A DNA stretch of 38,872 nucleotides from an uncultured bacterium (GTDB lineage Bacteria; Verrucomicrobiota; Kiritimatiellia; RFP12; UBA1067). The stretch spans positions 1 through 38,872 of the forward strand of contig CACWJS010000055.1 of assembly GCA_902761275.1 (NCBI GenBank), read 5' to 3'. The position numbers and the translations under genes are program-made. Within the stretch, counting starts at the first letter, position 1. Every line of letters begins with the position of its first letter. The notes beneath the pieces are model-generated. The model searched no databases and had not been told where the DNA came from. It worked only from the letters and a program-made list of their open reading frames with translations. Below are positions 27,964 to 38,872 of the stretch, piece by piece.

Positions 27964-30425
27964 ATAAGCAGAAGACGCCCGGAACTTGCGATCGGCGAAT
28001 CGTCGAGCGCACTCACCCATACTGCGGCAGGCGATTTTCCGTCGAGCTTCACCGTCAGCGGGCCGACCATACGCTCGCCACATTCCGCGAAGAAACCGGC
28101 TGTGCGCGGCGTGTCCACGCCGAAGAGTCGCCTCTCGCGGTCGATGATCACCTGCCCGTCGCCTGGAAGCGTGCCCTCGGCCAGGCGTTGGTAGTCGTCT
28201 GCCGTGCGCGAAAATATTTCAGGGAAAAGCCCTCCGGAGTCCGCATCCGCCGGAAGCGCGTCGGCGACGAGAGTGCCGATGCGGGCGTGCCAGCCGAACC
28301 ACATGTCCGCGATATTCAAATGGGGACCGCGGCCGAAGTCGTGGCGGAGCGCCTTCTCCGGCAAGACGACCGAATGTCTCTTGGCGAGTGGCTTCATGTC
28401 CCCGCGCAGGTAGAGCATCGTGACGGCGCGCTCGGTCGCCCTCTGTAGCGGATCCCTGGCAACGTCGAAGTAGTGGATCGGCTGCGGCTTGAGAAGCCCC
28501 TCGGCATTGTGGCTCCAGGCGAAGCGCCAGATGCCGTCGTATTCCTGAAGCGCGGCCTGTGCGCCCAGCATCATGCCGCCGACGCCGCGGAACTGGCCGG
28601 GGCCCGAGTAGTTGAACTCTGTAAGCGTGAACGGACGGTCGAGGAGACGGTGCGCGGCAACCGCCTCGAAACCGGCGTTCGGGCCGCAGACGGGATTGGT
28701 GTTCGGGCACTTGCTGGGCAGCTGCCAGCTCTTTTCAAGGAATTGGGGGTGATCGACGTAGAAATGGTCATCCACATAATCGTAATGCGTGCGGACAAGC
28801 TGGTAGTGGATTGGGTTCTTCCAGCAGGAGAGATCGGTCAGCAGCACCTGCGACTTGATTTCATCGCGGACGAAAGCGGTCATTCGCCGGGCAAAGTCTG
28901 TTTCGACGTCGGCGAAGAAGAGCGAACAGGCGCAATTCTGCGGCGAGTTCTCCCAGCAGTTTTCCGGCACCTTGTCAGTGATTTTGGCATACGTCTCGGG
29001 CTCTTTCGCCTTGTGGTCGGCGAGCCACTTCTCCCACGCCGCCTTCGCCTCCGGCAGGTTCTTCATGAAGCCGTAGCCGCAGTTGCCCAGATTGCCCTCG
29101 TTGACAAGCGCAAGGAACGCGAAGGCCGGCTCGTCGGCCCAGCGGCGCCCTGTCTCCGGATTGACGTGCGTGAGGAGCTGACGCGCGAAGTCGAGATAGT
29201 TTTTGAAGGCGCCGTCGTGGAAAAGCACGAGTTCCTTGAAGTCTTTCATCGGAACACAGTCATCCCGGTCGATGCCGCAGGAACGCCAGGGGATGTTCCG
29301 CGAAATAAAAAGGTCCGTAGTCAGGTAGATGCCATGGCGGATGCACGCGTTCAGGAGGTTGTCGAGTTCGGCCATCTTCTCGGGGCGGATCGTCGTGCCG
29401 TCCTTCGGATCGCATAGATCGCGTTCATAATGGTGTATGCGCAGCGCATTGTAGCCAAGACGCGCGAGGCGCGTGCACAGATCCTCGGCATCGGCCGCAC
29501 TCATGTAGTTGGCGGAGAAACAGAGGTTGACGCCATAGAAGCGCTGCTTGACGCCAGGTCTGCCGGCGAACTCGAAATGGTCGCCTTTGCGCACGACGCG
29601 GCCGTGCTTCCCGGCAGGCGCGTCGATCCAGCCGGCGGCGGAGAAGTCGAGAGCGGTGCCGGCCTTGACGTCCGTCGTATCCTTGACAGGCACCCACGTG
29701 TCGTCTGCCCGCACAATGTATTTCGTGTCGCGGAACAAGGCCGTGACACCGCGCATCGCCATCGAGATTGTCCGCTTTTCGCCGGCGCAAAGCTTTCCAT
29801 CCCCGATCATCAGGCGAAGCAAGAAGACAGGATTGCTCCAATGACGGTCGTCCTGCACCATGCACCACGTCGGCTTGCCGAGCTTCATGCAAACCGGCGT
29901 GCAATCAGGGGCGGCGACCTCCAGCGTGTCGCAGGTTGCATCGCCCAGACGCGTAACGCCGTAGTTCTGCGGCAGCGCTACTCTCTTGTCGCCCAGGACG
30001 ACATACCCCGCCGAGGTGTGGCCGGCGAACTGTTCGCAGGGAAGCGTCCACGACAGGCAAAAGCACTTGCCCTCGAAGTCCTTCGCCGCAGTGAAATCCC
30101 AGACGAATTGCGCTACAGTCTCGTCGTTCGTCGCATCGCGGCGAAAATCATACGTCACTTTTCCACGCACAACCGGCGCATCGTCCTTGCCGACAATCAG
30201 GAAGGTGCGCGTCCAAGGTCCGTCATCGCCGGCATTTTCGTCGTCCCATCCGCCAAAGACGCGGCAGGGCCACCAGCTTGCGTCAAACAGCTTTGGCTCA
30301 AAATGGCTGCCGCGACCGGACGCGAGGGAAAATCCTCCGCCATTCGAGACGACGATATCCTCTGCGATTGCACAGTTCATGCAAGACGCGAATACGATAA
30401 GGAATGCGAGAAAGCGTTGTTTCAT
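27897..30425 (-). CDS. Secreted clan GH-A glycoside hydrolase, 3' end frameshifted
   Basis: 842 aa in this frame from ATG 30425; a TTG twelve bases upstream is less likely. Signal peptide MKQRFLAFLIVFASCMNCAIA. After an N-terminal beta-sandwich region (to about 290) comes a TIM barrel: FYGVNLCFSANYM, LGYNALRIHHYERDL, GIYLTTDLFISRNIPW, Glu443 in ALVNEGNLG as acid/base, and Glu603 in FTLTEFNYSGPGQ as nucleophile. These NE and TE positions fit a GH5/GH-A type enzyme; I cannot assign the family. It has several Cys residues. The last sensible residues are SGRLLLI; the natural C-terminus continues in another frame to 27730, so the protein is probably truncated or altered in its final beta domain. 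It reads convergently toward the XylR-type regulator and no clear promoter is visible within 140 bases upstream. Confidence 0.72.
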   Translation of the reverse strand: MKQRFLAFLIVFASCMNCAIAEDIVVSNGGGFSLASGRGSHFEPKLFDASWWPCRVFGGWDDENAGDDGPWTRTFLIVGKDDAPVVRGKVTYDFRRDATNDETVAQFVWDFTAAKDFEGKCFCLSWTLPCEQFAGHTSAGYVVLGDKRVALPQNYGVTRLGDATCDTLEVAAPDCTPVCMKLGKPTWCMVQDDRHWSNPVFLLRLMIGDGKLCAGEKRTISMAMRGVTALFRDTKYIVRADDTWVPVKDTTDVKAGTALDFSAAGWIDAPAGKHGRVVRKGDHFEFAGRPGVKQRFYGVNLCFSANYMSAADAEDLCTRLARLGYNALRIHHYERDLCDPKDGTTIRPEKMAELDNLLNACIRHGIYLTTDLFISRNIPWRSCGIDRDDCVPMKDFKELVLFHDGAFKNYLDFARQLLTHVNPETGRRWADEPAFAFLALVNEGNLGNCGYGFMKNLPEAKAAWEKWLADHKAKEPETYAKITDKVPENCWENSPQNCACSLFFADVETDFARRMTAFVRDEIKSQVLLTDLSCWKNPIHYQLVRTHYDYVDDHFYVDHPQFLEKSWQLPSKCPNTNPVCGPNAGFEAVAAHRLLDRPFTLTEFNYSGPGQFRGVGGMMLGAQAALQEYDGIWRFAWSHNAEGLLKPQPIHYFDVARDPLQRATERAVTMLYLRGDMKPLAKRHSVVLPEKALRHDFGRGPHLNIADMWFGWHARIGTLVADALPADADSGGLFPEIFSRTADDYQRLAEGTLPGDGQVIIDRERRLFGVDTPRTAGFFAECGERMVGPLTVKLDGKSPAAVWVSALDDSPIASSGRLLLIRRRYCSSGDGCRTSCVGAWRK

Positions 30426-30567
30426 ATTGCGCGGCAAGTTGCGAGAACGAAAGCGCGGAAAGCGTGTCGATCAGGAAGACATGGTAATTGCCAATACAGG
30501 AAATGCTGAAGTTCCGCGGACCACTTGCCCTTGCGCATCAGGTCGGGGTACTGGCCGTTCCCGATTG
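30426..30567 (-). pseudogene. Possible coding remnant upstream of the GH-A gene
   Basis: Between the LamG gene stop and the GH-A start, two minus-strand frames look protein-like in turn: first GQYPDLMRKGKWSAELQHF, then, after a shift near 30,497, YHVFLIDTLSALSFSQLAA. No start codon or ribosome site belongs to it. It may be the remains of a deleted gene; I do not recognise the family. Confidence 0.25.
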
Positions 30568-31773
30568 TCACCTGACGAATATGATAAAGCCGCTTTCCGC
30601 CGGCTCCGGGACGAGCAGCGCGGGGCCGGCAATGAAGTTGGCGGAGCTGGCATTGGCGTTGCCATAGAAGACGCTGTTCACAGTGTCGTAAAGCCCGACC
30701 GCGCCAGTCGCCGTGTTCGAAACGGCAATGTAGTTGCGGACAAGCTCCCCGTTGTCCCATATCTTCATCCAGTCGAGGTCCATCGGCGTTGGATAAACTG
30801 CTTCATCGCCATGATGCTCCGCGAAAACATAGGCCGTGATGCTATCCTTGACAAAATCCGACTCCTCATCGTATGTGGCGGTGTAGCCGTCAAGCGTGAA
30901 GACGTTTTTGTCGAGCGAAAAGAGATGCCGCCCCGGGCCGTATGGCGCCCCTGCCGCGAGGTTTTTCCTGTCGCCCTTCCCATAGTCCGTTTCCCATGTA
31001 TCCCTCGCGTTTGAGCCGTAGAGTCCGATGACCTGGAACTTGTTCTTGTGGTCTGAAGTGCTTTTGCCGAACGGCGCAAAGGCCTGCGAAACGTGCGGAT
31101 GGGCCGTGAAGGAGAAGTCAACGCGCGTGTTGCGGTCTGGCACGAAGCCGGTGTCGATGTAAGGCATGACATTCGCCTGGACGAGCGACGAACGCAGGTA
31201 TTCCAGCTCCACATAGCCGCTCGCCGGATTGACCACAACCTGGAAATTCGCCTCGGCCGTCTCGCCCGCGTATGTGCCTATGCCCGTGACGGACATTGTG
31301 GCCGTTCCCGCGTCGTTGGTCGTGACGGCGAAGGTGTAGTCCTGCCCCGCCTTCAGTTTTGCGCCGCCACACCTGACGACAGGGGAATAGACCGGCTCGC
31401 TCCTGCTGCCGCTTTTCTGCACCGAAACGACCGCCATTCCCTCCTGTTCGTCGGCCTTGGCGGGGCCCGCCGTGAAGGAGCCGCCCGAGCCGGCGTTCTC
31501 GAGGAATCGCCCGGCCACGGTGTCGTAAGCGCCGACGACGCCGTCGGAGTCGCGTCGTGCGGGAACCAGGTTCATCACCTCGGAGAACGAGCCGTTCAGC
31601 AATCTGGCGTAGTAGAACTTGCCGTCGTAGCCGCGGCTCGTCGGCACGGTGTCGCTGCGGTTGTAGTAGGAGCCGAAGAGCACAGGATTGCTCCCGAAGC
31701 TGCCCGTTGCCCGATCAACCTTCCAAAGAGACCCGTCGATATAGAGAACTCCGTTGGACAAATTTGAAGACAT
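30568..31773 (-). CDS. Tandem LamG-type surface protein, C-terminal part
   Basis: Reads as protein from about 31758 (NGVLYIDGSLWKVDRATG) to the stop. The ATG at 31773 has GGGGAG just before it but lies inside the upstream frame. Content: the end of a first concanavalin/LamG-like domain (GKFYYARLLNGSFSEVMNLVPARR), then a short Ig-like repeat (GGAKLKAGQDYTFAVTTND, TATMSVTGIGTYAGE), then a second LamG-like domain opening GYVELEYLRSS and YIDTGFVPDRNTRVDFSF. The end is VPEPAESGFIIFVR. VPEP recalls PEP-CTERM, but no membrane helix or Arg cluster follows, so it is not a standard one. The last residues match the tails of two other surface proteins in this window. Joined to the N-terminal part by a +1 shift, the protein would be about 539 aa. 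Probably a cell-surface glycan-binding or adhesion protein. Confidence 0.65.
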   Translation of the reverse strand: MSSNLSNGVLYIDGSLWKVDRATGSFGSNPVLFGSYYNRSDTVPTSRGYDGKFYYARLLNGSFSEVMNLVPARRDSDGVVGAYDTVAGRFLENAGSGGSFTAGPAKADEQEGMAVVSVQKSGSRSEPVYSPVVRCGGAKLKAGQDYTFAVTTNDAGTATMSVTGIGTYAGETAEANFQVVVNPASGYVELEYLRSSLVQANVMPYIDTGFVPDRNTRVDFSFTAHPHVSQAFAPFGKSTSDHKNKFQVIGLYGSNARDTWETDYGKGDRKNLAAGAPYGPGRHLFSLDKNVFTLDGYTATYDEESDFVKDSITAYVFAEHHGDEAVYPTPMDLDWMKIWDNGELVRNYIAVSNTATGAVGLYDTVNSVFYGNANASSANFIAGPALLVPEPAESGFIIFVR

Positions 31774-32188
31774 GCTTCTCCCCTTCCGCAAGGACGTAGG
31801 AAAGTTCGTAGTATGTGTTTTTGACATCGGCGAGAGCGTGGTAGCTCCTCGAAGGCGTGTAAACCCAGAAGGCCGTCTCCATGCCATCCCCCATCTTAGA
31901 CCAAAAGATGCACGACTGCAAGTTTGCATCCGCATGCTTGTCGTAGGCGAAGGCGATTTCGAGCGTCGAATCGTGATCAATGGAAGCCCCGGTGTCGAGC
32001 CAGAATTTGAGCGGCGTCGTGGAGTTGTTGGCCGCGCCGTTGCCGGACATCGAGAAATACTGGAGCTCGGTGTAGCCGGAAGGCAGGGCCGCCTGCGCGG
32101 CGTATGCGCCGCACAGAATAGCGGCCGCGACCAGGAGTCTGCGGCAATTGCACCCCTTGGAAAACCTGTTGTTTCGCGATGTTACCAT
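31715..32188 (-). CDS. Tandem LamG-type surface protein, N-terminal part
   Basis: ATG 32188 is chosen over an ATG 15 bases upstream, because AAGGA lies seven bases before it and the start then aligns with that of the leucine-rich-repeat gene at 35426. Signal region MVTSRNNRFSKGCNCRRLLVA closely matches the other gene's MITLQNTMFSRGGGNYRNLL, although the mature proteins are unrelated. The mature part opens LPSGYTELQYFSMSG, the usual entry to this LamG-like domain, and continues as good protein to HVFKF at residue 143. There the frame breaks; the continuation is in the +1 frame (skip one base near 31759) and this frame ends 14 codons later. Transcribed from the promoter at 32237-32266. Confidence 0.65.
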   Translation of the reverse strand: MVTSRNNRFSKGCNCRRLLVAAAILCGAYAAQAALPSGYTELQYFSMSGNGAANNSTTPLKFWLDTGASIDHDSTLEIAFAYDKHADANLQSCIFWSKMGDGMETAFWVYTPSRSYHALADVKNTYYELSYVLAEGEKHVFKFVQRSSLYRRVSLEG

Positions 32189-32236
32189 GGTACATTCCTT
32201 CATTGACGGAAGACTTTTGCCGAACAGTTTGTTGCA

Positions 32237-32266
32237 ATTTTACCATATTACGCTTCCCTCCGTCAA
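32237..32266 (-). promoter_or_regulatory. Promoter of the LamG-type surface-protein gene
   Basis: Minus strand TTGACG (32261-32266), 18-base spacer, TGGTAAAAT as an extended -10 (TAAAAT at 32237-32242). The leader is about 43 bases. Confidence 0.75.
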
Positions 32267-32324
32267 ATATCTGCCGCACGCAATCCTGCAACGATTATGT
32301 CATTTATCTGCTAATGGCGAAAAG
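32267..32324 (-). promoter_or_regulatory. Conserved upstream element, copy at the LamG gene
   Basis: 58 bases directly upstream of the -35 box, at the same spacing as the copies at 26292-26349 and 35505-35562. The plus strand contains GCAATCCTGCAA, then TTATGTCATTTATCTGC, then TAATGGCGAAAAG. Confidence 0.55.
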
Positions 32325-32386
32325 AGTAGTGCGTCCGCGTCAATTGCGCGGCAATCGGTCACCGCACGGCGCGAAAAGTGAGTGTC

Positions 32387-32473
32387 TCACATCCAGCGGG
32401 CCTTGTAGAAGCGTGCGCCAGGGAAAGGTCCGACGACCCTGGAACCGTCTGCAACAAGGTCATGTCCGTACTG
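32387..32473 (-). pseudogene. Fragment of a DUF6528 gene with internal deletion
   Basis: The minus strand reads YGHDLVADGS followed at once by RVVGPFPGARFYKARWM and stop. Both pieces are near-identical to the complete DUF6528 gene (35625-36530), but about 192 bases between them are missing, an in-frame loss of 64 codons. The 5' end of the fragment is cut where the AAA/PD-(D/E)XK gene's 3' end begins. A remnant of a tandem duplication. Confidence 0.85.
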
Positions 32474-32484
32474 TGCAAAGTTAT

Positions 32485-34044
32485 CTAAATCTCCTCCACG
32501 AGCTCCTCGACTATGGTGCGCTTTTCGGCGGAGAAGGAAATGCCGATCAGTGTGATGCGCTTCTTCGAGAGCGCATACTTGCCCGCGTAGTCCTTGCCCT
32601 TGATCTGCTCCATCGCCTCGGCGGCCGAGCGGTCGAGCTTGAACTCCACGATGTATATGTAGCCGGGGACATCGATCTCCATGTCGATGCGCCCGTCGTT
32701 CGTCTGAACCTCGCAACAGACTCCAACGCCTATCGCCTTCAGCACAACATACACAATCGTCTGCCACATCTGCTCGTTCTGCCGGTCGGTGAGGCTGTAT
32801 GGTATATTGGCGAAAAACACCTTCAGGGCCTTCATGAACTTCGGCACGTCATGCTCGTAAAGAGCTTCCGCCGCCGCAATCTGCGCGGATTCCGCGCGCA
32901 TCGGCTCCAATCCGGCATACGCCGGCGCGAGCTTAGTCACAAAGGAGTTCTGGACTTCAAAATTCGGGAAACCGAGGCTGTATTTGCGGATCCCCCCCAT
33001 CTGCCGGAATCCCTTGATGGTGAGGTAGCCGGTCTGGTAGAGGAGCGTGACAATTTTCGGGTTGTCGGGCTCGTATGCGTTCAGCACGTCCTCGCCGATG
33101 TCGATGGTCGAGAAGTCGAGAGGATGCTCCTTCAAGATGTTTATCAGAAACGTAGGGACCGCCGTCGCCGACCAGTAGTCGTTGAACTTCCCTGCCTCAA
33201 AGCAGCATCCCAGTGACACCGGGTTGATGACGGGCTTGGCGTTTTCCTCGAACTTGTACCCATCGTACCACTCGACGATTTTCGCAAACGCCCCTTCGTC
33301 CGTCAACCCGTTGGTCTCGGCAAGCTCGTGGATACGCCCTGGGAAATACTGCAGAACCTCGTCGTGCGTGTAGCCGAAGAGCGTGGCGGCCTGAGGGAGC
33401 ATCGTCCAGTCCTTCAGGTTGTTGAGATCGGAAAAGATCGACACCTTGGAAAACTTCGAGACGCCGGTGATGAACGTGAAGCGCTGCTTCGACTCCTCGT
33501 ATTTAACAACACCGTAGAAAGGCTTGAGAAAGTCCCTGAACTTGACAACATCCGGCGTATTGAGGGCCTTGAGGAGAGGCTTGTCGTATTCGTCAATCAA
33601 GAGGACCATGCGACCATCCGGCGACTGCGCCGCCACGCCATGAATGAGGTCGCGGAAAATGTCGGGCATCAACTTGCCGCAATCCAATGTCAAGCCATGG
33701 GCGTTCGCCTGCAGGGCGAAATAATCCTTTAACGATTTCTCCAGATCCTCGACCGTATCATACTGCATCGTCCCCATGTCGAGGTGCAGGACAGGCCACT
33801 TCTTCGACCAGTCCCACTTCGACTCGATCGCAAGCCCCTTGAACAGCTCCCGCTGGCCGAGGAAAAGCGACTTCAGGGTGGAGACGGCGAGCGACTTTCC
33901 GAACCTGCGCGGACGGGCGATGAAGAACTGCGCACCGGCTTCTCCGGAGGCCATGGCATAGAGGGCTTCCGTCTTGTCAACGTATGTGAAGCCGTCTTCG
34001 CGCAGCCGGGAGAACGTGTATATGTCTGTAGCAACCTTTTCCAC
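32485..34044 (-). CDS. AAA-ATPase-like protein with PD-(D/E)XK nuclease domain
   Basis: 519 aa, PF09820-type AAA domain followed by a PDDEXK_9-type domain. N-terminus IYTFSRLREDGFTYVDKTEALY is the family signature. The Walker A is the usual variant RPRRFGKS (about residues 44-51), Walker B is VLLIDEYDKPL, and a sensor-like ITGVSKFSKVSIFSDLNNL follows. The C-terminal nuclease core shows GRIDMEIDVPGYIYIVEFKLD, that is, D...ExK. Families of this kind are often present in many copies per genome; their role is not settled (proposed links to mobile elements or conflict systems). The start is GTG 34044 with no ribosome site and a promoter immediately upstream, so the mRNA is probably leaderless. The gene sits between the copies of a duplicated segment, as if inserted into it. 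Confidence 0.88.
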   Translation of the reverse strand: MEKVATDIYTFSRLREDGFTYVDKTEALYAMASGEAGAQFFIARPRRFGKSLAVSTLKSLFLGQRELFKGLAIESKWDWSKKWPVLHLDMGTMQYDTVEDLEKSLKDYFALQANAHGLTLDCGKLMPDIFRDLIHGVAAQSPDGRMVLLIDEYDKPLLKALNTPDVVKFRDFLKPFYGVVKYEESKQRFTFITGVSKFSKVSIFSDLNNLKDWTMLPQAATLFGYTHDEVLQYFPGRIHELAETNGLTDEGAFAKIVEWYDGYKFEENAKPVINPVSLGCCFEAGKFNDYWSATAVPTFLINILKEHPLDFSTIDIGEDVLNAYEPDNPKIVTLLYQTGYLTIKGFRQMGGIRKYSLGFPNFEVQNSFVTKLAPAYAGLEPMRAESAQIAAAEALYEHDVPKFMKALKVFFANIPYSLTDRQNEQMWQTIVYVVLKAIGVGVCCEVQTNDGRIDMEIDVPGYIYIVEFKLDRSAAEAMEQIKGKDYAGKYALSKKRITLIGISFSAEKRTIVEELVEEI

Positions 34045-34053
34045 AATGCGCCT

Positions 34054-34082
34054 ATTATCTCACAAATAAACGGCGCGGTCAA
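34054..34082 (-). promoter_or_regulatory. Promoter of the AAA-ATPase gene, probably leaderless transcript
   Basis: Minus strand TTGACC (34077-34082), 17-base spacer, GATAAT (34054-34059), with TG before the -10. The expected start of transcription, about 34047, is only about three bases from GTG 34044. Confidence 0.7.
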
Positions 34083-34113
34083 GCATGGTCTTGCGGGGCC
34101 GTCCCCAACTGAA

Positions 34114-34199
34114 CTACCTGACGATCAGGAAGAATCCGCCGCCGCTCTTCACCTCGCCATAGGTGAGGAACGCGGCGTCTGCGAAAAGCGCCGCGACAA
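34114..34199 (-). pseudogene. Out-of-frame second C-terminal tail after the LRR gene
   Basis: Directly after the LRR gene stop, a different frame encodes VVVAALFADAAFLTYGEVK and then SGGGFFLIVR with a TAG stop at 34114-34116. This is another example of the Gly-hydrophobic-V-R tail found on the surface proteins here. It could be the original end of the LRR protein reached by a -1 shift, or the relic of a second surface-protein gene. Confidence 0.5.
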
Positions 34200-35426
34200 C
34201 TACCGGACGATTATCTGCAATCCGGGGACTCCACCGAGCGCAACCATGTATGCCTTGCGCGAACCGGCCTTGTAAACTCCAAAGGTGTTTTTCGGCGCAT
34301 GTGCGCTTTCATATCCAGCGAGCGCGTCGGCGTATCCAGCCCACGCCCGTCTGTTTGCCGCCGGAACATAAACCGTGCAGTTTTTCGCCGCGTCGGTCGC
34401 CGAATCAACAGCCGTCACGCCGGTAAGAATGCGATCCATGACGGTTGTCGTATAGTCTGTCCCGCTTTGATTGAAAGGCCCATGGAGGATTGTGACCTCC
34501 TTCAGACTCGTCGATGAAAAGGCAGTGCCGTTGACATTGCCGTTGAGCAAAGGCGCCGACAGTGTAAGCGTCTTGAGACCAGTGTTCTTAAAAGCATCCT
34601 GCCCGATAGTCGTCAGCTTGGGGCAGTCGATTGAAACAGTCTTGAGCGCCGAGTCGTTAATCGCAAAGTCCTTGCTGATTGAGGTTAGATTCTCGCACGA
34701 TACCGTTATGTTGGTTATCGACGTGCAGTTGGGGAAGAAGCCGCCAACGGCCGTCAAGAACGGGCTTGTTATCTCCGCATCACGCAATCCACACTTGTAA
34801 AACTGCTGTCCGGTGCCGCCCTGTAAAGTTGAAAAAGAGGCCAGCGCCGGCAGCGATAATTTTCCTGTAACCTTGCCGCACTTGCGGAAAGGCGCGCTTC
34901 CAATGTATTTGACCGTCGGAGGGCAGAGAGAATCAACGGCTGCGGACAAGTTTTGGTCTTCCCAGAAAGCCTCGTCGCCAATTCGTTCGATCGGCGTTCC
35001 CGATGGGAACTCGCAGGTAGCGAGAGCCGTGCAACTCTTGAAAGCATAGTTGGCTATGTTCGTGACCGTTGACGGGAAATAGACCGACTTTATCGATGTA
35101 TCGCTGCTCATAAAGGAAGCCCCTATGGTCTCGATTCCATAACCTTCGGGCAAGGGAATCGTGCGAAAGTTAAGCGCTGTCGAAGCCCCCTTGGTCGTCT
35201 TGCCAAAGACGCCACTTGAAGTAAGCGAGAACACCCAAGCCGTGCCGCTCGCGGGCTGCTCGGTAATCACAAGCGTGTCGCTTGAATCATCGACTGTCCA
35301 TACTGTTTCAGGCGCGGCGGCGCTGGCCGCTAGCGGCGCGAATGCAACCGCGGACAGCGCGGCAATCAGGAGGTTTCGATAATTACCCCCCCCCCTGGAA
35401 AACATGGTGTTTTGCAAAGTTATCAT
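34200..35426 (-). CDS. BspA-like leucine-rich-repeat surface protein
   Basis: 408 aa. ATG 35426 follows AAAGGA by six bases. The signal region MITLQNTMFSRGGGNYRNLL plus a hydrophobic stretch to about residue 38 is homologous to that of the LamG-type protein. Residues about 95-330 are LRR_5/TpLRR-like repeats: SIKSVYFPSTVTNIANYAF, RIGDEAFWEDQ, SITNITVSCENLTSISKDF, ALKTVSIDCPKLTTIGQDAF, GLKTLTLSAPLL. After a VYVPAANRRAW segment the protein ends GGVPGLQIIVR, sharing the hydrophobic-V-R tail. BspA-like repeats typically mediate adhesion or protein and glycan binding at the cell surface. It has its own promoter with the conserved 58-bp element. A second possible tail lies out of frame after the stop. 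Confidence 0.82.
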   Translation of the reverse strand: MITLQNTMFSRGGGNYRNLLIAALSAVAFAPLAASAAAPETVWTVDDSSDTLVITEQPASGTAWVFSLTSSGVFGKTTKGASTALNFRTIPLPEGYGIETIGASFMSSDTSIKSVYFPSTVTNIANYAFKSCTALATCEFPSGTPIERIGDEAFWEDQNLSAAVDSLCPPTVKYIGSAPFRKCGKVTGKLSLPALASFSTLQGGTGQQFYKCGLRDAEITSPFLTAVGGFFPNCTSITNITVSCENLTSISKDFAINDSALKTVSIDCPKLTTIGQDAFKNTGLKTLTLSAPLLNGNVNGTAFSSTSLKEVTILHGPFNQSGTDYTTTVMDRILTGVTAVDSATDAAKNCTVYVPAANRRAWAGYADALAGYESAHAPKNTFGVYKAGSRKAYMVALGGVPGLQIIVR

Positions 35427-35474
35427 GGCATATCCTTTCTTCGGTTGTACGCTTTTGCCGAACAGTTGATTATG

Positions 35475-35504
35475 ATTTTACCATATTCCGCTTCCCTCCG
35501 TCAA
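35475..35504 (-). promoter_or_regulatory. Promoter of the LRR surface-protein gene
   Basis: Minus strand TTGACG (35499-35504), 18-base spacer, TGGTAAAAT as an extended -10 (TAAAAT at 35475-35480). The same boxes and spacing occur at 32237-32266. Confidence 0.75.
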
Positions 35505-35562
35505 ATTTCTGCCATACGCAATCCTGCAACGATTATGTCATTTATCCGCCAATGGCGAAAAG
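35505..35562 (-). promoter_or_regulatory. Conserved upstream element, copy at the LRR gene
   Basis: 58 bases next to the -35 box, same spacing as the other two copies. The plus strand contains GCAATCCTGCAA, then TTATGTCATTTATCCGC, then CAATGGCGAAAAG. The GGCGAAAAG end coincides with the U tract of the terminator at 35557-35608, so part of the conservation may reflect termination. Confidence 0.55.
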
Positions 35563-35608
35563 AGCCGTGCGTCCGCGTCAATTGCGCGGCAATCGGTCAC
35601 CGCACGGC
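35557..35608 (-). terminator. Intrinsic terminator of the surface-protein/GH109/DUF6528 operon
   Basis: On the minus strand GCCGTGCG (35601-35608) pairs perfectly with CGCACGGC (35564-35571). Inside, CCGCG pairs with CGCGG, and TCTTTT follows. It starts 17 bases after the DUF6528 stop. In copy 1 (near 32,326-32,370) the outer stem has decayed to five pairs. Confidence 0.65.
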
Positions 35609-35624
35609 GCGAAAGGTGAGTGTC

Positions 35625-36530
35625 TCACATCCAGCGGGCCTTGTAGAAGCGTGCGCCGGGGAAAGGTCCGACGACCCTGGTGGTTCCGTCCGGTTCTATG
35701 ATCTTCAACTCGTCCGTCCACCATTTTTCCTTTGCGATCGTAATAAGGTCGCCCTTCTTGGCGTCGCGCGAAAAGCTCTTGACATTTGCCATGTCACGCA
35801 CTTTTGTCCAGCGATCCGCATCGGGGTCGAGATGCCAGACGGCGGTGTGGTTCGTCAGGAAGTAGCCGCCGGAGCCGTCTGCAACAAGGTCATGTCCGTA
35901 CTGGTCGCAGAGCTTCGCGGAATAGTCCCAGCTACGCTTGACTGAGACAGACATGTCGGCGGACGAATATGCGAGTTCGTAGAGATTCGTGTAGCCGAGC
36001 GCAAAGAGCGAACCGCGCCGCGCGTCCCACACGACGCCGTGCGCCCCCGGGAGCGACATCGCCTTCACGACCTTCTGGCGGGCGGGGTCGAGCGGCGCGG
36101 CGGAGACGTCGATTATCTGAAGTGCGTCGACGCCGGTCGAATTCGCGACCGCGACCTTTCCGTCGGGAAGTGCGCAGAGCGAATGGGGCCCTGCGTTCCA
36201 CTCTGGCAGGTATGCGTACCACTTCACGCTCGCCGTGGCGACATCCACCGCGGCGACACCTCCGCAGGAGGCGTTGGCGAGTATCTCACTACCGTCGGCG
36301 GACGGCTTGCATTCGTCTATGTTTCGAAAAGAATTGCGGTAGGTCGGCAGTATCTTCGAATCCTTGCGCGAATCCCAGCGCCACAGGATCTCCGCCTGTG
36401 CGCCGGGAGCGCCCGACACCATCACAAGCGAACTCGTCGACTGGTCTGCGGCGACAATGCGGTAATCCGCACCGGCTGCGCCAAACGCAGCGGCAATAGC
36501 CGTTACGACAATATTCGATTTGTGCATCAT
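35625..36530 (-). CDS. DUF6528 family protein, secreted beta-propeller-like
   Basis: 301 aa. ATG 36530 has AGGAG six bases before it. Signal peptide MMHKSNIVVTAIAAAFGAAGA. The sequence follows the DUF6528 pattern as I recall it: ILWRWDSRKDSKILP, NIDECKPSADGSEILANASCGGVAAVD, YAYLPEWNAGPHSLCALPDGKVAVANS, GAHGVVWDARRGSLFALGYTNLYEL, YGHDLVADGSGGYFLTNHTAVW and the end FPGARFYKARWM. The repeated short strands suggest a YVTN/propeller fold. Function is unknown; such proteins accompany glycan-degrading genes. It is 31 bases downstream of GH109, with which it is co-transcribed. A decayed partial copy lies at 32387-32473. Confidence 0.75.
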   Translation of the reverse strand: MMHKSNIVVTAIAAAFGAAGADYRIVAADQSTSSLVMVSGAPGAQAEILWRWDSRKDSKILPTYRNSFRNIDECKPSADGSEILANASCGGVAAVDVATASVKWYAYLPEWNAGPHSLCALPDGKVAVANSTGVDALQIIDVSAAPLDPARQKVVKAMSLPGAHGVVWDARRGSLFALGYTNLYELAYSSADMSVSVKRSWDYSAKLCDQYGHDLVADGSGGYFLTNHTAVWHLDPDADRWTKVRDMANVKSFSRDAKKGDLITIAKEKWWTDELKIIEPDGTTRVVGPFPGARFYKARWM

Positions 36531-36561
36531 ATATAACTCCTGATTTCAAATTCTGCAATCA

Positions 36562-38052
36562 TCAGATAAATCCTTCCTGCCGCGCGTTCGCATCGGAGTT
36601 GTCGTCGTGCTTGACGCCGCCGAAGTCCCCGGGCAGTTTGGAAAGGTCTATTTCGTCGATGGTGAAGCCCTTGCCGCCCTTCCACGCGCCACGCGTGAAG
36701 TCGGGACATTCCACCGGTTTGGAGCCAGACTCAACCGACCGCCGCGTAAGTTCCACCATCGAACTCCACGCCGCGAGGTCGTACACGTCGGTGTCCAAGG
36801 GGATTCCGTTCTGAAGGCAGTAGCTCCAACGAAGATCCATGATAAAGTCCATGCCACCATGTCCGCCGACCTTCTTCGCCACCTCGCCAGCCGCCTTCCA
36901 TATCGGGTGGGCGTACTTCTTGCGCAATTCCGCCGTCGCGGCCTCGTCCATGAACTTGTGCGCCTTGCCGTCTCCCGTCTTGTCCTCAAGCGCGACGCGG
37001 AACTCGGGATAGCCCATCGCCATGCCACGCGTGCCGGAGACGAGATTGATGCGCGAGTATGGACGCGGCGTACAGGCGTCGAGCTGGAGCAGGATGCTGC
37101 GCCCGAGCTTGGTGCGGATTAGAGTCTGGCTCATGTCGCCAATCTTGACACCGAAATCCCTGCGCCAATCGTCGAAAAGCTCCTGCGCGTAATGGCGATA
37201 GCTCGCCTGCTTCGACTCTATCGACACGAGGAAGTCGAAGCTGTCGCCACGGTTGATGTCCATGTACTTCGCGACAGGACCAAGCCCGTGAGTCGGATAC
37301 TGGTTGCCGCCCTGCTTTGCGTAGAAGTGAAGCGTCCAGCCGGGCTTGCCGGCCTTGGCCGCGTCGCGCTCGCCGTCCATCGTGTGATAGCGGTCCGACT
37401 TGAACTGGAGGTCGCGCTGGTCGTGGATATACGCGGCTTCGCCGTGGGTGATCTCGCCGAAGAGCCCGAGCTTGGCCATGTTGAGCATCAAGAGCTCTTC
37501 CTCGCCGTAGCAGCAGTTCTCGAGCATCATGCACGGCATCTTCGTGCGCTCGCTCGTCTCGACGAGGTTCCAGCATCCGTCGACCGTCTGGGTGCCGGGC
37601 ACCTCGTTAAGCGCAACCTTGCCATGCTCCATCGCACATACCGCAATCGGCTCGTGCATGTGCCACGGCGTCACGTTGTAGACTACGTCCACCGCGTCAG
37701 ACTCACAGATGCGCTTGTATTCCTCGGGACCGGCCTTGGCGAATTTTGGCGTCGGCTTCCCGCTCTCCTTCAGCCACTTGAGCTCGCCGTCAATGCGGTC
37801 TTGGAAGAGGTCGGCGATGGCGGAAACTTCAGTCCCCGGAATCATCGAGATGCGCCTAAGCGCCGAGACGCCGCGTCTCCCAACGCCGATTACCGCGACG
37901 CGCACCTTCTTCATCGGCTTGAGCGCAAAGCCCTGCATCGGCGCGCCAGTCGTGCCAAAAAGTTTCAGAGGATTGTTCGCACAGCCAGCGGCCATCGCCA
38001 CTGCGCTCATCCATGCCGCAGACTTGAGGAACTCTCTTCTATCCTGTACCAT
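36562..38052 (-). CDS. GH109 family protein (NAD-dependent alpha-N-acetylgalactosaminidase-like), Tat substrate
   Basis: 496 aa. ATG 38052 has AGGAGG seven bases before it. The twin-arginine signal QDRREFLKSAAW shows folded export, consistent with a bound NAD cofactor. The Rossmann start is VRVAVIGVGRRGVSAL (about residues 50-65). The family motifs TPWHMHEPIAVCAM, NEVPGTQTVDGCWNLVE, and NQYPTHGLGPVAKYMDINRGD follow; His255 in PTHGLGP matches the catalytic His of GH109. GH109 enzymes remove terminal alpha-GalNAc, as in blood-group A or mucin glycans, by transient oxidation with NAD; other Gfo/Idh/MocA activities cannot be excluded. It lies between the partial surface-protein gene and DUF6528 in one operon. 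Length is slightly above the typical 440-480. Confidence 0.83.
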   Translation of the reverse strand: MVQDRREFLKSAAWMSAVAMAAGCANNPLKLFGTTGAPMQGFALKPMKKVRVAVIGVGRRGVSALRRISMIPGTEVSAIADLFQDRIDGELKWLKESGKPTPKFAKAGPEEYKRICESDAVDVVYNVTPWHMHEPIAVCAMEHGKVALNEVPGTQTVDGCWNLVETSERTKMPCMMLENCCYGEEELLMLNMAKLGLFGEITHGEAAYIHDQRDLQFKSDRYHTMDGERDAAKAGKPGWTLHFYAKQGGNQYPTHGLGPVAKYMDINRGDSFDFLVSIESKQASYRHYAQELFDDWRRDFGVKIGDMSQTLIRTKLGRSILLQLDACTPRPYSRINLVSGTRGMAMGYPEFRVALEDKTGDGKAHKFMDEAATAELRKKYAHPIWKAAGEVAKKVGGHGGMDFIMDLRWSYCLQNGIPLDTDVYDLAAWSSMVELTRRSVESGSKPVECPDFTRGAWKGGKGFTIDEIDLSKLPGDFGGVKHDDNSDANARQEGFI

Positions 38053-38088
38053 TGTCGAACCTCCTTTAGCCCGCCCTTTTCTCTCGTG

Positions 38089-38872
38089 CTATTTGACGAT
38101 GATCATGAAGCCGCCCTTGCGCGACACTGCGTAGAGGCCGTCGGAGCGCGATTCCAGCTCCCAGGTCTTGCTCTTGAATGTCGCTTCTGGCTGGGTCGTC
38201 CAAGAAATCACCTTTTCGCCCTTCGCTATGGCGCGGTTGCCAAGTTCGACAGTGACTTTAGCACCAGAGGCGAACGTCGTCGTCGTGCTGCCGTATGAAA
38301 GTGATGTTGTGACGTTCCACGTGCCCGTCTTCCCCGAAAGGTCAATCGTAGAGCCGTCCTGCATCGTCGGGCCGTAGAAGTAGCTGCTGTTCGGCGTGAA
38401 GGTCCCATAGACATTCAGCGCGGCGTTGCCCTCGCTGTAGTTGTTGGGATAGTTTGCGGCATAGTCCCGGAAAGGCAACGACGCCTTGTCCTGAAGAGCC
38501 AGCGCGGCATTGCACAGCAAATCGACGTTTTGGAATTGAGTGGGCCGGTTCTGACCCGGCGTGAAAGTGGTGAGGTAGCCGCCACGCACGACGTTCAGGC
38601 AGCCGGACGTCGGCGGCTCCGAGGGGTGGCTCTGGATGAAGAGCGTGGCGCCGACGATGGAAACGGTGGCGGTGTGGCCATTGAGTTCACCGATCGCCCA
38701 TCCGTAGTTCTGCATCGTGGCGAAGATGAAGTCGGCGTTGACGGTAAGGCTTGGGTTGAAGACGCCGTAGGTAGAGGTAGTCCACGCAACGGTGTTCGAG
38801 ACCATGCCGCCGTTGAAGGTGACATGGTGATTTCCCCAACCCTCCGATCCGGCTGGGTCAAGAACGCCGCCC
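38089..38872 (-). CDS. Beta-strand-rich surface protein, 3' part (runs off the window)
   Basis: 260 codons are visible and the frame is open to the window edge, so the N-terminus is missing. The content is rich in Thr, Ser, Asn and Gly with alternating strands (ATVSIVGATLFIQSH, STIDLSGKTGTWNVTTSLSYG, ASGAKVTVELGNRAIAKGE), like autotransporter-type passenger or extracellular beta-helix repeats. It ends with TWELESRSDGLYAVSRKGG followed by FMIIVK and stop, again the Gly-hydrophobic-V-K/R tail. It is followed 36 bases later by GH109, so the surface protein, GH109 and DUF6528 are probably one transcription unit. I do not recognise a specific family. Confidence 0.75.
   Translation of the reverse strand, partial: GGVLDPAGSEGWGNHHVTFNGGMVSNTVAWTTSTYGVFNPSLTVNADFIFATMQNYGWAIGELNGHTATVSIVGATLFIQSHPSEPPTSGCLNVVRGGYLTTFTPGQNRPTQFQNVDLLCNAALALQDKASLPFRDYAANYPNNYSEGNAALNVYGTFTPNSSYFYGPTMQDGSTIDLSGKTGTWNVTTSLSYGSTTTTFASGAKVTVELGNRAIAKGEKVISWTTQPEATFKSKTWELESRSDGLYAVSRKGGFMIIVK

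Follow-up and report, generated by a model that had tools for sequence, protein, structure and literature searches.

Organization of the LRR and LamG-like gene pair

The window, i.e., the whole stretch of DNA analyzed here, is the complete contig C55 (38,872 bases) of a draft genome (G000; 3.43 Mb, 88.8% complete). Its minus strand carries, in order, a DUF6528 gene (36530-35625), an LRR gene (35426-34200), a short C-terminal remnant of another protein, an AAA-ATPase/PDDEXK gene (34044-32485), a second copy of the DUF6528 3' end and a LamG-like gene (32188-30568), with the ATGs of the LRR and LamG-like genes at 35426 and 32188, respectively. An Rfam search of positions 30000-38872 returned no match. 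Two glycoside hydrolase genes, GH97 and GH109, are found on the same contig (20-2029 and 36565-38052), in keeping with a glycan-degrading lifestyle.

The DNA shared upstream of the LRR gene (35427-35680, minus strand) comprises the 3' end of the DUF6528 gene (35625-35680), the intergenic region and a ribosome site, and aligns with the DNA upstream of the LamG-like ATG (32189-32442) at 227 of 254 nucleotides. The sharing described in an earlier note on this DNA is real, although the identity is 89% rather than the roughly 93% given there. Predicted extended -10-like sites (TGGTAAAAT) are located at 35475-35483 for the LRR gene and at 32237-32245 for the LamG-like gene. The first 25 codons of the LRR gene (35352-35426, minus strand) encode a leader with a signal peptide (MITLQNTMFSRGGGNYRNLLIAALS; leader profile E=3.7e-14) and contain a G10 tract (35386-35395; FSRGGG) that leaves the gene in frame, i.e., ON. 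The corresponding leader of the LamG-like gene (32114-32188, minus strand; MVTSRNNRFSKGCNCRRLLVAAAIL; E=4.5e-20) contains a G4 run and no long tract. The two leaders align (MITLQNTMFSRGGGNYRNLLIAA and MVTSRNNRFSKGC-NCRRLLVAA) and are homologous, as the note had proposed from the first codons; the mature parts are, again as proposed, unrelated. The first mature part, or passenger, is a BspA-type LRR protein (34200-35351, minus strand) that ends in GLQIIVR and matched LRR_5 in Pfam (PF13306, E=4e-24), whereas the second (30568-32113, minus strand), ending in GFIIFVR, gave no match in a Pfam scan and reads, judged by its sequence, as a LamG/concanavalin-like repeat protein. The frame of the LamG-like gene breaks after codon 157, near 31755, and goes on in the +1 frame, indicating either a pseudogene or an assembly error. 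This frameshift is of a single base, at AAATTTG, and lies away from any G tract.

The remnant directly 3' of the LRR gene (34114-34199, minus strand), which ends in ...EVKSGGGFFLIVR, carries the C-terminal motif of this genome described below. No full-length close relative of it was found among the genes read, and it is perhaps the leftover of an earlier passenger. Between both cassettes lies the AAA-ATPase_like and PDDEXK_9 gene (32485-34044, minus strand; PF09820, E=2e-50; PF08011, E=9e-19), a member of a family that is multicopy in the genus, with matches in congeners at 67-77% DNA identity. A search of the genus, dominated by this ATPase gene, provided no close DNA match for the LRR or LamG-like passengers of the window.

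Part of the likeness between the two genes has a local origin. A direct repeat of 290 nt (32153-32442 and 35391-35680 on the LamG-like and LRR sides, respectively) is 88% identical, and a second block of 33 nt (32441-32473 and 35871-35903) is 97% identical. The distal part of the shared DNA consists of the 3' end of the DUF6528 gene and its intergenic region. The source of this sequence is the beta-propeller-like DUF6528 gene itself (35625-36530, minus strand; PF20138, E=3.5e-19), and repeats and alignment place an internally deleted second copy before the LamG-like cassette (32392-32473, minus strand), followed by the intergenic region and ribosome site of that gene (32189-32391, minus strand). 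Because the shared DNA reaches into the DUF6528 3' end, a local segmental duplication underlies the pair; it is specific to these two genes and accounts for some of their likeness, a share that the earlier note had overlooked. Such a duplication would have placed a second cassette and passenger beside the first. DUF6528 orthologues in congeners (~50% identity) stand in other contexts, and the pre-duplication state of the window locus was not found among them.

The leader cassette in the genome and its relatives

When the upstream DNA of the window was used as a query, six further sites were identified in the genome, matching only around the ribosome site and signal peptide, and a consensus query recovered 12 strong copies with E-values down to 6.6e-35. 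Another copy was found on C12 in a fuzzy reading of the contig, a diverged copy on C70 was the 14th, and its weak C70 neighbor (E=3.2e-5) the 15th. In total, the cassette with this leader (leader A) occurs in 15 copies (14 clear, one weak) on eight contigs, with five on C12, two each on C55, C59 and C70, and one each on C118, C156, C39 and C8. Since 13 more copies exist in the genome, the likeness of the LRR and LamG-like leaders is far above chance; the earlier note had asked whether it was confined to the pair, and other genes, here and in congeners, do carry the cassette.

The copies share a common core, TGTGGTAGAATATTCCCAAACTCG.AAAAGGAG.....CATGATAACTTCGCGAAACAACAGGTTTTCT(A)(G)n..., which corresponds to the extended -10, the ribosome site and ~25 codons, and a -10-like site and ribosome site are predicted from sequence before every aligned copy. 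Among the 14 clear copies, pairwise identity was 0.70 at -50 to -1 and 0.72 at nt 1 to 75 (0.50 when shuffled), decreased to 0.62 at nt 76-100, approached the shuffled value at nt 100-250 (0.54 vs 0.52) and was at shuffled level upstream of -110. A palindrome of the form C(4-14)TAATTT(A/GA)G(4-10), whose arms vary in length, precedes the promoter in many copies of this genome and of congeners. According to Pfam, the passengers include LRR_5, Alpha_L_fucos, Laminin_G_3/DUF2341, Gly_rich_2, Beta_helix and PKD proteins, and others are LamG-like proteins without a Pfam match.

Across the contigs of this genome, the motif G-x-x-[hydrophobic]3-[R/K] (e.g., SGLTIFVR, GLQIIVR and GFMIIVK) closes 27 of the 383 full-length genes that were read, with examples in the window at 34200, 30568 and 38089. 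Of 28 such ends, 27 had R or K as the last residue. Families of C-terminal sorting signals gave no match in ten proteins searched against NCBIfam or in the Pfam scans, and no NCBIfam family was found for either the leader or the C-terminus. The motif may be a sorting or folding signal.

Models of leader A were searched against 61 genomes of the genus, to which the related rumen MAGs RUG10963 and RUG14528 also belong. Clear matches were obtained in G010, G012, G030 and G064 and weaker ones in G039 and G066; a few congeners thus have one or two copies, most have none, and the expansion to 15 copies is found in one species. None of the genomes sampled from other genera of the order gave a match. 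Searching around a G9 tract on C40 identified a second leader family, leader B (AGGAGAAGCAATATGAACGGGGTGAGAAAACTCGC, MNGVRKLACG...), in G000, G012, G065 (7 matches), G059, G064, G016 and G052. Its passengers are LamG-like, LRR, beta-helix, glycine-rich and glycoside hydrolase proteins, and the family behaves like leader A. On G010:C48 (L194), two copies of a different leader, 1.76 kb apart (15101 and 16865), are accompanied by the same type of palindrome, consisting of C-run, TAATTTGA and G-run, and this promoter and leader pair is probably a third family.

Exchange of passengers between leaders

One LamG-like passenger (Q) was found behind leader A on C12 of G000 (C12e), behind leader B1 on G012:C55 and behind leader B2 on G059:C8. 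In the available matches over 1.3 kb, Q of G000 is 94.7% identical to that of G012 and 96.1% identical to that of G059, with 100% identity for ~200 nt from just past the cleavage site; counted over the initial 700 nt of each gene, 541/553 and 549/553 positions of the mature parts match, respectively. The leaders preceding Q in the three genomes cannot be aligned, and the join falls at the signal-peptidase site in all three species, which are also the only ones in which the genus search found Q nearly whole. As Q is carried by leaders of both families, passengers are not bound to any particular leader. This observation also bears on a rival reading of the leader as a conserved export signal that purifying selection maintains for a dedicated secretion or anchoring pathway, as with YSIRK or extended signal peptides, and that ordinary duplication of genes has multiplied, exchange and switching playing no part. 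The unusual polar N-terminal stretch of the leader (MI-x-SRNNRF) and the C-terminal G-x-x-[hydrophobic]3-R motif common to many passengers would suit such a signal; however, the conservation is at the DNA level and includes the promoter, and the same passenger follows two different leaders, and we regard this account as unlikely. A special export role can nevertheless hold together with exchange and switching.

The reverse arrangement, in which different passengers follow one leader at one locus, was observed as well. Between G012:C55 and G065:C22, the 4.2 kb upstream and the leader are 96.6% identical (99.4% in the last 1.56 kb), after which the passengers differ. G059:C8 carries a tandem array, LB1-X-LB2-Q, in which X is related to the G065 passenger, and leaders LB1 and LB2 overlap by 47 nt at the likely crossover. 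LB1-Q of G012 looks like the product of a deletion between leaders LB1 and LB2 of a G059-type array, with that array as the presumed ancestral state. Similarly, the flanks of G039:C22 and G066:C19 are 98-99% identical up to the leader, the LRR passengers only 50-65%, the C-termini similar again and the downstream DNA 94-100% identical. The modular organization put forward in the earlier note is therefore supported by both the 15 copies and the exchanged passengers: many copies precede unrelated passengers, and leaders and passengers have been re-paired, with junctions within the leader or at the signal-peptidase site, the latter being where the note had suggested looking for breakpoints.

Misassembly, in which short repeats joined the wrong flanks to the wrong passengers, has to be considered, since the genomes are all fragmented MAGs, in which some cassette genes (e.g., C12e) end at contig edges. 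However, the homology at junctions is short and imperfect (as in the 47-nt overlap of LB1 and LB2), a single passenger is fused in frame and intact to three leaders in three genomes, and contiguous DNA of 93-99% identity borders the G039/G066 passenger on either side, making chimeras a very unlikely source of these arrangements.

Genes for ATPases adjoin several leaders: the PF09820/PF08011 gene in the window, and an ATPase-like gene of ~1.58 kb in G012 and G065 at a position where G059 has 13 bp. An ATPase-like ORF also follows the LRR gene in G039 and is absent in G066. These leader-adjacent genes (window; L185, 7674-9065; L217, 1-1311) look mobile.

In G064:C113 (L193, 1550-1730), a leader-A cassette extends up to a G11 tract and is continued by a complete leader-B 5' UTR, and the tract itself is thus the junction. 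Such a cassette placed directly before a complete 5' UTR, together with the dispersal of the copies and their expansion in one species, would be expected if the cassette were itself a small mobile element, inserting ahead of genes. Against this, neither target duplications nor fixed ends were seen, the joins fuse sequences in frame, in or after the signal peptide, instead of inserting the cassette before intact start codons, and identity fades between nt 75 and 100; we find a mobile cassette highly improbable, and it was set aside for its lack of fixed ends. A single local duplication that copied the DUF6528 end, promoter and leader, with the two genes diverging later, would account for the pair-specific DUF6528 3' end, yet it is hardly credible as the whole story and is refuted by the other cassette copies, as 13 further leaders in the genome precede other folds and LRR and LamG-like folds do not arise from each other by divergence.

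Poly-G tracts, related systems and interpretation

Runs of at least six G are present in six of the 15 leaders of this genome. Four are in frame (G10 in the LRR gene of C55, G9 in C118, G6 in C39 and G6 in C8), and two are out of frame (G7 in C59b and G9 in C70) before sequences that are otherwise open for 754 and 1,319 codons. One extra G in C70, as in the LRR gene of the window, would restore the frame. The other nine leaders have runs of 3-4 G and cannot switch by slippage. Tracts in congener leaders were all in frame (G10 in G012, G6 in G010 and G6 in G030). These leaders share several features with contingency genes, namely poly-G/C of at least seven in a frame-setting position (C55 G10, C118 G9, C70 G9 and C59 G7), poly-G in a promoter position (G9 in C12a and C156), and ON (C55 LRR, C118, C39 and C8) and OFF (C59b and C70) states with intact downstream genes.

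Run lengths were counted in 816 kb of stretches enriched for cassette contigs, and searches of the whole genome were added. In this cassette-enriched sample, G runs of 5, 6, 7, 8, 9 and 10 occurred 446, 65, 8, 1, 8 and 1 times, respectively, so that the spectrum drops about sevenfold per base to a single G8 and then rises to eight G9. Free of that enrichment, the whole genome (3.43 Mb) contains 12 separate runs of at least nine G, three of which are in leaders, two in cassette promoter palindromes and one in the leader-B 5' UTR on C40, although tracts in related leaders are not independent observations. Only two of 404 Gly-Gly-Gly triplets are written with at least eight G, both in leaders. 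Taken from sequence, the leader tracts probably switch genes on and off by slipped-strand changes, and they are the likeliest fast switch in this system, which the earlier note had not noticed. Homopolymer errors could mimic OFF frames in MAGs. Other G9 tracts occur just 5' of signal-peptide-like starts at C9:30826 (L151) and C113:4303 (L161) of G000, and the genes there are candidates for phase variation outside leader families A and B.

Several known systems resemble parts of this arrangement. In the vsp genes of Mycoplasma bovis and the vpma genes of M. agalactiae, the 5' UTR and signal peptide are conserved within the family and between species, whereas the coding sequences beyond the signal peptide have no significant homology between both species (PMC2268961). 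The cassettes described here likewise combine a conserved 5' region and signal peptide with coding sequences that are not homologous. However, the vsp/vpma genes all belong to one locus, where the Xer1 recombinase switches a single active promoter, whereas the copies here are spread over eight contigs, each with its own promoter; instead of one active promoter and silent copies, promoter sites are predicted before all aligned copies. Tyrosine recombinase matches (PF00589) were obtained only on C183, C41, C161, C81 and C109 and on no cassette contig, which argues against a vpma-like site-specific switch, with linkage across gaps possible in this draft genome. In Campylobacter fetus, homologous sap S-layer genes can be exchanged downstream of a constant promoter region, from which they are expressed (PMC3887049). 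There, one type of S-layer protein is encoded at one locus, in contrast to the unrelated folds and many loci found here. Among Campylobacter phase-variable tracts, G9 (52%) and G10 (30%) are the commonest lengths (PMC6321876). Tracts of 9-10 G dominate both in the contingency loci with poly-G in Campylobacter and similar species and in the genome studied here, at positions where slippage would shift the frame or the promoter spacing. The difference is that the tract sits in a leader common to non-homologous genes, so that the switch moves along with the cassette. Neisseria opa and Helicobacter hop genes have slippage repeats within the signal-peptide coding region of a surface-protein family, whose members are homologous throughout. 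A slippage tract in the signal-peptide region is thus common to these genes and the leaders described here, whereas the passengers here are non-homologous. We rate vsp/vpma and C. fetus sap as the closest known designs; the arrangement here differs in the dispersed copies with their own promoters, the unrelated folds that include enzymes, the exchange across species and the slippage tract as part of the shared leader. Among the papers in the library searched, none combined phase variation with the name Kiritimatiellota, the phylum to which the organism probably belongs, judging by its gene content and its rumen MAG relatives.

Overall, we are fairly confident in a system of dispersed cassettes of promoter, ribosome site and signal peptide with exchangeable passengers, presumably exchanged through recombination and switched through G runs. 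Each copy would drive and export whichever passenger stands behind it. Leader copies may exchange passengers through homologous recombination, both inside tandem arrays and with DNA from related species, and any in-frame join from such recombination would leave a complete secreted protein. Slippage of the G run at replication would move the passenger in or out of frame and turn expression reversibly on or off, while the variable C and G arms of the promoter-side palindrome may add transcriptional variation. More tentatively, and as a joint proposal that we hold to be possible but would not yet favor, the leader may serve as both exchange platform and export tag, i.e., a portable promoter, signal-peptide and poly-G module behind which unrelated extracellular domains are spliced across the species of one genus. 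The N-terminal leader and the C-terminal motif on either side of these domains would both stay constant, and the G tract would act as an on/off switch and also, as seen in G064, as the place where leader families recombine.

The signal peptides and domain types suggest that the proteins are located on the cell surface, where exchange or phase switching would generate variation within a population. One lineage could then present different extracellular proteins (sugar-binding, adhesive or glycan-cleaving) cell by cell, and acquire new ones. In uncultured rumen bacteria, the loci described here come close to showing the shuffling of domains in secreted proteins as it happens, and with a leader-borne switch, if real, any secreted enzyme or adhesin would become phase-variable as soon as it was acquired.
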